From the NCBI GenBank assembly GCA_030149325.1, contig JASBRS010000014.1:1-64000 (forward strand): a stretch of DNA of 64,000 bases. Reading direction: 5' to 3'. Position numbers and translations under genes: made by a program. Numbering within the stretch: position 1 is the first letter of the stretch; each line of letters begins with the position of its first letter. The stretch comes from Deinococci bacterium. GTDB lineage: Bacteria > Deinococcota > Deinococci > Deinococcales > Trueperaceae. A model generated the notes under the pieces. It saw only the letters and a list, made by a program, of their open reading frames with translations. It did no database searches and had not been told where the DNA came from. Positions 16,778-30,766 of this stretch are shown here, piece after piece.

Positions 16778-18196
16778 TCAGCCGAGCTTCCAGCGGCTCC
16801 CCTCGGCGGTGTCCTCCACCTCGATGCCGAGCTCCTCGAGGCGCGCACGCATGGCGTCGGCGGTCGCGAAGTCGCGGCGCGCCCGTGCCCGCTGGCGCTC
16901 CTCGAGCAGCATGCCCACCAGCCCGTCGAGCAGGTCGTGGCTCTGCCCCAGGGCGTCGGCCGTCGGGGGCACGCCGAGCACGCCGTCGAGCAGCTCGTCG
17001 AACAACGCCCGGGCCGCCGCACGGTAGGCGGGGGAGGCGCCGGCCTCCAGCGCACGGTTGATGTCGCGGGCCGCATCGAACAGCACCGCCAGCGCTTGCG
17101 GGGTGTTGAGGTCGTCGTTCATGGCCTCGGCGAAGGCCGCGCGGGCCGCCTCGAAGGCCCCCGGCTCGGCCGTCTCGCCGGCCCCCTCCGACACCAGGCG
17201 GTAGGTCTCGCGCAGCCGCCGGAGACCCTGCGCCGACGCCGTCAGGCTGTCGTCGGAGAAGTCCGACACGCTGCGGTAGTGCGAGCGCAGCAGGTGGAAG
17301 CGCACCGCCACCGGGTCGTAGCGCTCGAAGAGCTGCGCCAGGGTGACGAAGTGGTTCTTCGACTTCGCCATCTTCTCGCCCTCGAGCGTGATCATGTTCC
17401 AGTGCAGCCACACCCGGGCGAAGGGCTTCCCGGCCGCCCGCGCCTGCGCGATCTCGCACTCGTGGTGCGGGAAGATCAGGTCGAGCCCGCCGCCGTGGAT
17501 GTCGAACTCGTCGCCCAGGTACTTGGTGCTCATCACCGAGCACTCCAGGTGCCAGCCGGGGAAACCCTCGCCCCACGGGCTCGGCCAGCGCATGATGTGG
17601 CCCTCCTCGGCCTTCTTCCACAAAGCGAAGTCGCGCGGGTCGTCCTTGTCGGAGCGCACCTCGACGCGGGTGCCCTCCAGCAGCTCCTCCGGGTCGCGCC
17701 CCGAGAGCTCGCCGTAGGGCTGGTAGGCCGACACGTCGAAGTAGACGTTGCCGTCCTTGACGTAGGCCACGCCGCCGTCGAGGAGGGCGCGCGTGAGCTC
17801 GATCTGCTCGATGATGTGCCCGGAGGCGCGGGGCACCACGTCGGGCCGGCGCACCCGCAGCCGCGCCATGGCGTCGAAGTACGACCAGAAGTACTTCTCG
17901 GCGACCTCCATCGGCTCGAGCCGCTCGAGCTGCGCCCGCTTGGCGAGCTTGTCCTCGCCCTCCTCGACGTCGGACAGATGGCCGACGTCGGTGACGTTGG
18001 AGACGAAGCGCACGCGGTAGCCTTCGTGCTCGAGCCAGCGCCGGAGCACGTCGAACACCACGGGACCGCGCGCGTGCCCGAGGTGCGGCTCGGAGTAGAC
18101 GGTGGGTCCGCACATGTAGATGCCGACGTGCCCCGGCACCACGGGGCGGAACTCGTCCTTGTTGCGGGTCAGGCTGTTGTAGAAGGTCAGAGCCAT
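16778..18196 (-). CDS. cysS: cysteinyl-tRNA synthetase
   Basis: [49 protein letters not shown] motif [11 protein letters not shown]. Confidence 0.97.
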
Positions 18197-18263: not shown

Positions 18264-18317
18264 TCAGGAGAGGTGCCGCAGACATCGAAGGGTGCGGAGG
18301 CCCGTCCGTACCGTCAT
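18264..18317 (-). CDS. candidate leaderless leader peptide upstream of cysS (MTVRTGLRTLRCLRHLS)
   Basis: TAAACT box (18325..18330) 7 nt before ATG; 17 codons including one Cys (TGT). Confidence 0.45.
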   Translation of the reverse strand: MTVRTGLRTLRCLRHLS

Positions 18318-25025: not shown

Positions 25026-25808
25026 TCAGAGGGCGTGGAACAGCTCGAGCAGCGGTTCGACCCCGACCGGCCCGCCCAGCATGTGACTGAGCCCCAGCTC
25101 GATGCGGTAGGCGTCGAGGTCGCGGCGGTTGAAGGTGAGGGCGCCGACGCTCATGGCACGACGGCGGATCCCCGACACCGGCTCGGGGACGAGATCGAGC
25201 AGCGTCAGGTGCGGACCGAGCAGCGACTCGGGGACGCGCAAGCTGGGGTCGCACCGCACCAGCAGATCGGCCCGCTCCAGCAGCGTCGGCACCAGGGGGT
25301 CGTGGGCAGCGCGGGCCAGAACGGTCGGTCCAGCCGCCAGTCCCGGCAGGGTGCGCTCCGCGTCGGCCGGACTCTCCGCCAGCACCGCGATCGAGGCCGC
25401 CCCCATGCTCGCCAGCTCCCGCGCCACGCCCCGAGCGGTGGAGCCGCTGCCGAGCAGCACCGCCTCGGCCTCCCGAGCGTCCCAACGGGCCGAACCCAGC
25501 AGCGACGCCACCGCACGGCCCAGGTTGTACTCGGCGATCACGCCGCCCGGCGTGACGGTGATGGTGTCGGCCGCTCCCACCTCCTGGGCGTCGAGCGAGG
25601 AGCGGTCGGCGTGTCGCAGGGCCTCGGCCTGGAGGCCGGCGTCGAGCACCAGCGCGCCCGCGAAGTCGAGCCGCTGGAGTCCGCGGTAGAGCTCCTCGAC
25701 GCCGCCGGCAGGCACGGGATGCAGCAGGAACCGCCCCTGGGCGTCACGGTACGAGCGCAGGGCGTGACGGAGGTCGGCATCGGCGCTGAGGACGGCGACG
25801 AGATGCAT
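25026..25808 (-). CDS. shikimate dehydrogenase (AroE)-like protein, apparently catalytically degenerate
   Basis: Rossmann AEAVLLGSGSTARGVARELASMGAASIAVLAES and VGAADTITVTPGGVIAEYNLG align to AroE; TATACT box 7 nt before ATG. Confidence 0.7.
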   Translation of the reverse strand: MHLVAVLSADADLRHALRSYRDAQGRFLLHPVPAGGVEELYRGLQRLDFAGALVLDAGLQAEALRHADRSSLDAQEVGAADTITVTPGGVIAEYNLGRAVASLLGSARWDAREAEAVLLGSGSTARGVARELASMGAASIAVLAESPADAERTLPGLAAGPTVLARAAHDPLVPTLLERADLLVRCDPSLRVPESLLGPHLTLLDLVPEPVSGIRRRAMSVGALTFNRRDLDAYRIELGLSHMLGGPVGVEPLLELFHAL

Positions 25809-25903
25809 GTCGCCCAGTATAGCTGCGCGGAGCTGCCATCCGGGAAGGACCGGAGGGGCGCTCCCGCCCGTCTGTCACGGAGTACGTTCGGCGGGGGCTG
25901 TGC

Positions 25904-25909
25904 TACAGT
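25904..25909 (+). promoter_or_regulatory. extended -10 box of the thrS leader transcript
   Basis: TGCTACAGT (TGNTANNNT) 5 nt before the leader-peptide ATG. Confidence 0.55.
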
Positions 25910-25914
25910 GGCGC

Positions 25915-25989
25915 ATGCCGAGCCGGCGGACGTCAGCCACGCGCAGGACCTGCACGCTCACGCGTTCGACGCGTCGAACGTCGCGCTGA
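25915..25989 (+). CDS. candidate Thr-rich leader peptide of thrS (MPSRRTSATRRTCTLTRSTRRTSR)
   Basis: 24 codons, 7 Thr (ACG/ACC), leaderless promoter geometry, directly upstream of thrS; contains the palindrome CGTTCGACGCGTCGAACG at 25963..25980. Confidence 0.7.
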   Translation: MPSRRTSATRRTCTLTRSTRRTSR

Positions 25990-26044
25990 ACCGCTCCGCC
26001 CGCCCGCACCCCGCAGCCCCATCCCGAACTCCACGAGGTATCCC

Positions 26045-28024
26045 ATGCATGTTGTTCTCCCCGACGGTACACGCCTGGAGGTGCCGGCGCATGCCACCGG
26101 CGCCGACGTCAGCCAGGCGATCGGCCCGGGCCTGGCCAAGGCCGCCCTGGGCGTCAAGGTCGACGGCCGCCTCTCCGACCTGCTGAGCGAGGTCCCGCAA
26201 GGGGCCGAGGTCACCGTCCTGACCCGCAAGGATGCGGCGGTGGCCGACCTGATGCGACACACCCTGGCCCACGTCATGGCCCAGGCGGTGCGCGAGTACT
26301 TCGTCCAGCAGGGCTACGAGGCCCAGACCGTGCGCATGGGCATCGGGCCGGTGATCGAGCACGGCTTCTACTACGACTTCGACCTGCCTCGGACCCTCAC
26401 CCCCGACGACCTGGGCGCCATCGAACAGATCATGCGGCGCATCGTCGCCGACGACCTGGAGCTGCGCAAGTACGAGCTCCCGCGCGACGAAGCGCTGGAG
26501 CGTTACCGCCGCACCGGCGACCCGTTCAAGCAGGAGCTCATCCAGGACCTTCCGGCCGGCGAGCCGATCACCTTCTACGAGCAGGGGGGTGAGGCGGGCT
26601 TCACCGACCTCTGCCGCGGGCCGCACGTGCCCCGCACCGGCGTCATCGCCCCGCACTTCAAGCTCATGAGCGTCGCGGGCGCCTACTGGCGTGGCGACGA
26701 GCGCCGGCCGATGCTGCAGCGCATCTACGGCGTCGCGTTCCTGACCAAGGACGAGCTCGAGCACCACCTGTGGCTGCTCGAGGAGGCCCGCAAGCGCGAC
26801 CACCGCAAGCTCGGCCGCGAGCTCGGGCTGTTCACCTTCAGCGAGGACATCGGCGCCGGACTGCCGGTGTTCTTCCCGCGCGGCGAGATCGTGCGCTTCG
26901 AGATGGAGCGCTACGTGCGCGAGCTGCAGACCCGCTACGGCTACCAGCACGTGTGGACCGGCCACATGGTGCGCGAGTCGCTGTACGAGCGCTCGGGGCA
27001 CCTGGAGAACTACGCCGACGTGATGTTCCCCGCGATGGAGGACGAGGAGGTGCGCATGCGGCTCAAGCCGATGAACTGTCCGAGCCACATGACGCTCTTC
27101 AACGCCGGCCACCACAGCTACCGTGAGCTGCCGTTGCGCTACGCCGAGTTCGCCACCCTCTACCGCTACGAGAAGTCGGGGCAGCTCTCCGGCCTGACCC
27201 GCGTGCGCAGCCTGACCCAGGACGACTGCCACATCTTCTGCACCGAGGACCAGATCCAGGCCGAGTTCTCCCTGGCCCTGCGCCTGATCCGTGAGGTGCT
27301 GTCGACCTACCGCATGACCGACTACCGGGTCCAGCTCAGCCTCCGCGGCGCCGAGGGCAAGTACGTCGACGACGACGAGAAGTGGGTGAAGGCCACGGCC
27401 GCGCTGAGGCGCGCGCTCGACGCCGAGGGCGTGCCCTACGAGGAGGCTTCCGGCGAGGCCGCCTTCTACGGGCCCAAGGCCGACTTCATGGCCAAGGACG
27501 CACTGGGGCGGGAGTGGCAGCTCTCGACGATCCAGGTCGACTTCATCCAGCCCGCCCGCCTGGGCTGCAGCTACATCGGCGAGGATGGCGACAAGCACGT
27601 TCCGGTGGTGCTGCACCGCGCGGTGACCGGCTCGACCGAGCGCTTCATGGGGGTGATGCTGGAGCACTTCGCCGGCGACCTGCCGCTGTGGTTGGCGCCC
27701 GAGCACGTGCGGCTGGTGCCCATCGCCGATCGCCACCTCGACTACGCCGCGCAGGTGCGGGAGCGCCTGCTGGCCGCTGGCCTGCGCAGCGAGATCGACG
27801 ACCGCAGCGAGCGCATGAACGCCAAGGTCCGTGACGCCGAGCTGCTCAAGGTGCCCTACATCGCCATCCTCGGCGACAAGGAGGCCGAGGCCGGATCGGT
27901 GTCGTTCCGCAGCCGCAAGGAGCCCAACCGCAACGGCGTGCCGTTGCAGGCGTTCGTCGACGAGCTGGCGGCGCTGGTCGCGAGCCGTTCAGCGCAGGCC
28001 GAGGAGGACGCGGCTCCCGCCTAG
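26045..28024 (+). CDS. thrS: threonyl-tRNA synthetase
   Basis: MHVVLPDGTRLEVPAHATGADVSQAIG TGS domain; LKPMNCPSHM; GASGEAAFYGPKADF region. Confidence 0.97.
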   Translation: MHVVLPDGTRLEVPAHATGADVSQAIGPGLAKAALGVKVDGRLSDLLSEVPQGAEVTVLTRKDAAVADLMRHTLAHVMAQAVREYFVQQGYEAQTVRMGIGPVIEHGFYYDFDLPRTLTPDDLGAIEQIMRRIVADDLELRKYELPRDEALERYRRTGDPFKQELIQDLPAGEPITFYEQGGEAGFTDLCRGPHVPRTGVIAPHFKLMSVAGAYWRGDERRPMLQRIYGVAFLTKDELEHHLWLLEEARKRDHRKLGRELGLFTFSEDIGAGLPVFFPRGEIVRFEMERYVRELQTRYGYQHVWTGHMVRESLYERSGHLENYADVMFPAMEDEEVRMRLKPMNCPSHMTLFNAGHHSYRELPLRYAEFATLYRYEKSGQLSGLTRVRSLTQDDCHIFCTEDQIQAEFSLALRLIREVLSTYRMTDYRVQLSLRGAEGKYVDDDEKWVKATAALRRALDAEGVPYEEASGEAAFYGPKADFMAKDALGREWQLSTIQVDFIQPARLGCSYIGEDGDKHVPVVLHRAVTGSTERFMGVMLEHFAGDLPLWLAPEHVRLVPIADRHLDYAAQVRERLLAAGLRSEIDDRSERMNAKVRDAELLKVPYIAILGDKEAEAGSVSFRSRKEPNRNGVPLQAFVDELAALVASRSAQAEEDAAPA

Positions 28025-30743: not shown

Positions 30744-30766
30744 GACGCGCTCTCTCCCAGCCGCAT
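30740..30766 (-). CDS. candidate leaderless mini-ORF MRLGESAS, overlapping the oxidoreductase start
   Basis: TAGAAT (30775..30780) 8 nt before ATG; TCATGA overlap with the downstream ATG. Confidence 0.4.
   Translation of the reverse strand: MRLGESAS

Follow-up and report, generated by a model that had tools for sequence, protein, structure and literature searches.

The gene for threonyl-tRNA synthetase, thrS, is controlled by binding of ThrRS in Escherichia coli and by T-boxes in Firmicutes. In the stretch of Trueperaceae DNA analysed here (64,000 nucleotides of contig JASBRS010000014.1, referred to below as the window), thrS is preceded by a small open reading frame with many threonine codons, which raises the question of whether this frame is a leader peptide through which the gene responds to threonine. 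The reading put forward here, with a probability of about 0.7, is that positions 25901-26044 form a ribosome-mediated attenuator of thrS that senses Thr-tRNA. The features of the locus, and of a second leader in the window, are collected in Table 1.

Table 1. Features of the thrS and cysS leader loci, in window coordinates.
Feature	Position	Strand	Evidence
Extended -10 promoter element TG-C-TACAGT, TGCTACAGT	25901..25909	+	sequence
Candidate leaderless Thr leader ORF, MPSRRTSATRRTCTLTRSTRRTSR then stop	25915..25989	+	sequence, comparison with relatives, shuffles
Conserved CGA-ACG (Arg-Thr) codon pair, two codons before leader stop	25975..25980	+	in-frame conservation
18-bp palindrome CGTTCGACGCGTCGAACG, codons 17-22 of leader	25963..25980	+	sequence
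Spacer after leader stop, C-rich, G-poor, weakly structured; candidate Rho-loading region	25990..26034	+	composition, weak folding
thrS Shine-Dalgarno GAGG, 6 nt before thrS ATG	26035..26038	+	sequence
thrS, threonyl-tRNA synthetase, gene under proposed control	26045..28024	+	NCBIfam TIGR00418, 652.7 bits
Divergent neighbour gene, weak below-cut-off matches to shikimate dehydrogenase	25026-25808	-	profile matches
Candidate leaderless Cys leader of cysS, MTVRTGLRTLRCLRHLS then stop, with CGA-TGT (codons 11-12); -10 TAAACT 7 nt upstream	18264..18317	-	sequence, relatives
cysS, cysteinyl-tRNA synthetase	16778..18196	-	NCBIfam TIGR00435, 449.7 bits

Leaderless genes are common in Deinococcota, and in D. 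radiodurans the -10 motif of leaderless ORFs typically lies 6-7 bp upstream (PMC12340547). In the window, a base-by-base check places the -10 element 5 nt from the leader ATG at 25915, at the short end of the 5-10 nt range seen in relatives. The frame runs for 24 codons to a TGA at 25987-25989, which leaves 55 nt to the thrS ATG at 26045, and seven of the 24 codons specify threonine (25930, 25939, 25948, 25954, 25960, 25969 and 25978). Every coordinate that an earlier note on this DNA had given proved exact. Six of the seven threonine codons are ACG, a codon with a 36% share among the threonine codons of genes in the window (P about 0.01).

That such a frame arose by chance in GC-rich DNA beside the thrS promoter is extremely improbable. 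Open frames are abundant in DNA of this kind, a second frame of the leader stretch is also open, and the 36% share of ACG among threonine codons would ease a chance origin, but seven or more threonines were reached by only 2 of 18,506 open dinucleotide shuffles of the leader ORF, and the binomial P for its threonine content is 2e-4 to 1e-3. None of the other small leaderless ORFs among the 41 counted in 201 kb of sequence from Trueperaceae reached a threonine share of 25%. The mean threonine share of thrS leaders (one per genus, n=16) was 15.7%, and for a background of 100 leaderless ORFs it was 5.3% (Mann-Whitney P 3e-6). Chance is further contradicted by the in-frame conservation of the leader motif and by gene-matched amino-acid enrichment in the leaders of thrS, cysS and pheS, both described below.

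The DNA upstream of thrS was compared among genomes of the order (111 genomes), outside which lie the other families of the phylum, possibly including Deinococcus itself. A leaderless small ORF was defined as TANNNT, then 5-10 nt, then ATG or GTG. Threonine-containing frames of this kind were seen upstream of thrS in four other families of the order as well as in 8 of the 17 Trueperaceae genera, and threonine is present at 37 of 37 thrS loci with a leader candidate, counting all candidates selected by the rule. In these relatives the TANNNT hexamer, often with TG upstream, lies 5-10 nt before the leader start, and the gap from leader to thrS is 41-222 nt. The Trueperaceae peptides differ along their body, while CGA-ACG is kept near the end, usually two codons before the stop (endings WRTRR, RRTRS, TTRTRS, RRTRR, TTRTRG and KRTSI, each followed by the stop); in two further families (f2 and f3) CGA is kept with ACG, ACC or ACT. 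Across Trueperaceae, f2 and f3, CGA-ACN shares the reading frame of the leaderless start at all 21 loci that have such a start followed by CGAAC, for which, with about 11 genera represented, chance is roughly (1/3)^11, a test that is only partly independent because the motif was first spotted by eye.

The earlier note had proposed a threonine-rich leaderless leader of thrS, and of this the leader itself is borne out by its recurrence in relatives and by the 21 in-frame CGA-ACN pairs, whereas the richness is not conserved, the leaders at L061 and L069 having one threonine each and the closest relatives being without dense threonine. The conserved feature across thrS leaders is the terminal threonine codon and not threonine density. 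What the comparison shows is a conserved in-frame threonine codon near the end of a predicted leaderless ORF before thrS, and it supports a leader that is leaderless, translated and threonine-coding. A threonine-sensing switch is considered very likely because the leaderless frame is conserved, in frame and with its threonine codon, in related Deinococcota. The conserved CGA-ACG pair, like the corresponding leaders before cysS and pheS described below, goes beyond what the earlier note had described.

The leader is not universal. It is absent from nine of the 17 Trueperaceae genera compared; at the Thermus-like loci examined, the -10 element leads straight into a leaderless thrS with no leader before it, and the same holds in 4 of 5 loci of one Trueperaceae genus (g15). 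At leader-free Trueperaceae loci (L067, L073, L075, L076, L087, L088 and L090), a small hairpin of the type GCGTCCCCGACGC was seen in the short thrS 5' region. In one genome (G039) there are two thrS copies (L115 and L122), each with its own leaderless leader containing CGA-ACN. Upstream of thrC and hom in the window's own genome, no leaderless small ORF was found.

Comparable leaders were seen in front of two other synthetase genes. One is that of cysS, where relatives carry leaders such as MFALRC, MIFAVRC, MDRPARRC and MHPTFHRCR (each ending at a stop), with a layout shared across the order; cysteine is present at 35 of 37 cysS loci with a candidate, and CGATGT, where it falls within a candidate, is in frame in 28 of 28 cases. 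The other is that of pheS, which in the window's own genome has the leaderless leader MRFRADSAFTR (L160:1290-1325), followed by a terminator-like hairpin with TTTT; the pheS leaders of relatives (MQSYLASPFIH, MAAFFFS and MSGRWFFG among them) recur across the order, many with terminators, and phenylalanine is present at 31 of 31 pheS loci with a candidate. When all rule-selected candidates are counted, every set shows an excess of the amino acid that its gene serves: in the thrS, cysS and pheS leaders, respectively, the threonine share is 12.0, 4.3 and 6.1%, the cysteine share 1.6, 7.8 and 1.2%, and the phenylalanine share 4.8, 3.4 and 14.4%. The matching cysteine and phenylalanine leaders point to a wider regulatory habit. 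This does not extend to trpS, which at nearly every locus examined begins right after a -10 element of its own and has no analogous leader, or to ileS, for which no such leader was found in the loci examined. Upstream of one ileS gene (L274) there is a T-box-like sequence, AAGCGCGGTGGTACCGCGG, which would fit control of ileS by a T-box within the order.

The codon that precedes the cognate codon may itself be of consequence. CGA accounts for 4.6% of arginine codons in window genes; in each of the 15 Trueperaceae thrS leaders listed it stands before the conserved threonine codon, and at 27 of 37 cysS loci with candidates it stands before cysteine. The pheS leaders make no such use of CGA and tend to have TCG-CCN before TTT. 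The CGA-ACG pair near the stop is the probable site of the decisive stall, and a slowly decoded CGA in the P site could lengthen it; alternatively, the conservation of CGA might reflect a conserved RNA element. An in-frame pair of CGA and cognate codon in two synthetase families poses a concrete question about stalling.

A full version of such a leader comes from a group which we take to be Meiothermus and allied genera, named from record titles and general knowledge. The thrS leaders of this group, MRSRPTTRPGESF, MFGLATTTRRREDS and similar peptides, are followed by alternative structures: over 11 leaders, pairing amounts to 95.8% in the antiterminator, where 3 pairs have changed on both sides, and to 94.7% in the terminator, which has 2 such double changes and a T-run after it. 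For two of the leaders the predicted fold is far more stable than in shuffled versions (z -5.5 and -2.5). To judge from its covarying antiterminator and terminator, the leader of this group is a classical attenuator, and it anchors the reading of the window ORF as a threonine leader. Family f4, presumably Marinithermaceae, carries the thrS leaders MAPFVTTTR and MRRPASTTTTWGRGGS.

These comparisons also bear on the possibility that the leader does not sense threonine and that it boosts thrS translation via re-initiation, or keeps the message open, with the threonine codon incidental. Leader genes near structural genes have been proposed to raise expression by re-initiation (PMC4833913), and two leaderless mini-ORFs in the window, at 30766 (-) and 52417 (-), encode MRLGESAS and MATPTDPADPPRASAPSAPERR and overlap the next gene by 4 nt (stop on start), which suggests translational coupling. 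The gap before thrS, 55 nt in the window and 41-222 nt in relatives, is however long for re-initiation; moreover, in each of three synthetase families the leader carries the codon that fits its gene, and the Meiothermus-group leaders have a full attenuator. This explanation is therefore regarded as very unlikely.

As proposed here, transcription of the window leader would start at or beside its ATG and ribosomes would translate the leaderless ORF, as is suggested by the position and conservation of the promoter. When charged tRNA-Thr is plentiful, the ribosome would reach the stop and leave, and most transcripts would end early; when it is short, the ribosome would stall at threonine codons, decisively at CGA-ACG, and thrS would be expressed.

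How the stall would be converted into thrS expression is the least certain part of the model, and while the sensing claim is held firmly, the output claim is held loosely. The earlier note had pointed to the palindrome, which stalling on threonine codons would block. This structure is present and perfect over its 18 bp, as claimed, but it was rejected as a switch, since it is not seen in relatives and confers no excess fold stability, the whole leader region folding no better than its shuffles (z 0.09); it is probably incidental. The leader ORF alone likewise folds no better than its shuffles (z 1.06), and no intrinsic terminator was found in the window leader region. In 25800-26150 no T-box match was found in Rfam at E values up to 10, none reached the gathering score, and no other Rfam family was matched.

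The C-rich, G-poor character that the earlier note had described for the segment after the leader stop holds up well, the C minus G of positions 25990-26044 being equalled by 35 of 127,892 segments of 55 nt, itself included, and a rho gene is present. In the model for tnaC, Rho is denied a site just downstream of the stop by a ribosome halted close to it (PMC8429421), and in the same manner a ribosome held near the leader stop might hinder Rho on the C-rich spacer. Because there is no intrinsic terminator, the spacer is C-rich, G-poor and weakly folded, and rho is present, a Rho-dependent output is the preferred guess; the composition of the spacer suggests Rho loading there, hindered by a ribosome near the stop, at somewhat under even odds. 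The model is weakened by the short reach of a ribosome at codon 22, which would extend only a few bases beyond the stop. It is weakened too by the relatives at L064, L072, L084, L089 and L096, which do not have the C-rich spacer.

It is also conceivable, if unlikely, that the stalled ribosome alters access to the thrS Shine-Dalgarno sequence and not transcription termination. The gene has a Shine-Dalgarno sequence of its own, CTCGAG repeats in f3 (L119 and L121) can pair mutually or with a CTCGAGG Shine-Dalgarno, and such a mechanism has been proposed for mycobacterial leaderless poly-Cys uORFs, as cited in PMC13236596. In the window, however, the region of the Shine-Dalgarno pairs weakly and is less stable than its shuffles (z 1.40), and no competing anti-Shine-Dalgarno segment is evident in the leader. 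For the Trueperaceae thrS leader, Rho-dependent attenuation stays the preferred guess, and it enters a more general proposal that is offered tentatively, as a doubtful one: that Deinococcota may control a set of synthetase genes, at least thrS, cysS and pheS, by leaderless leader peptides, in which CGA would prime the stall in thrS and cysS and a ribosome near the stop would keep Rho off in Trueperaceae thrS.

If correct, a leaderless sensing peptide would be a third solution for thrS control, recurring through an order of Deinococcota. The layout shared by the cysS and pheS leaders suggests that amino-acid attenuation in this phylum draws on leaderless initiation, and the three sets of leaders give precise predictions for unannotated small ORFs, which are testable in culturable Meiothermus. 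A search that covered papers outside subscription turned up none on leaders before thrS, cysS or pheS in Deinococcota, and an earlier mention is possible; the main text of the leaderless-gene study speaks of neither leader peptides, attenuation nor thrS (PMC12340547).

Several known systems resemble the proposed one in part. The T-box of Firmicutes and the ThrRS operator of E. coli share its target gene and purpose, whereas the window leader has no T-box match, and its folding against shuffles gave no sign of an operator-like structure. The E. coli leaders ThrL (thrABC), PheM (pheST) and TrpL are alike in being short upstream ORFs with cognate codons, at which stalling reports tRNA charging, and their full terminator/antiterminator pair is shared by the Meiothermus-group thrS leaders; the window leader differs from them in its predicted leaderless initiation, in targeting thrS rather than a biosynthetic operon, and in having neither an intrinsic terminator nor competing hairpins. 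In mycobacteria, leaderless poly-Cys uORF attenuators have been described (Canestrari 2020, cited in PMC13236596), which, as far as that citation goes, resemble the proposed leader in that cognate codons of a leaderless ORF report amino-acid supply; here it is a synthetase gene that would be controlled, through threonine, in another phylum and with no predicted Shine-Dalgarno sequestration. The E. coli tnaC leader is like the model for the window leader in its stall near the stop codon and in a C-rich region just downstream that could load Rho (PMC8429421), but tnaC stalls at its stop on free tryptophan via the nascent chain, whereas the window leader would stall through uncharged tRNA, with a putative Rho step to follow.
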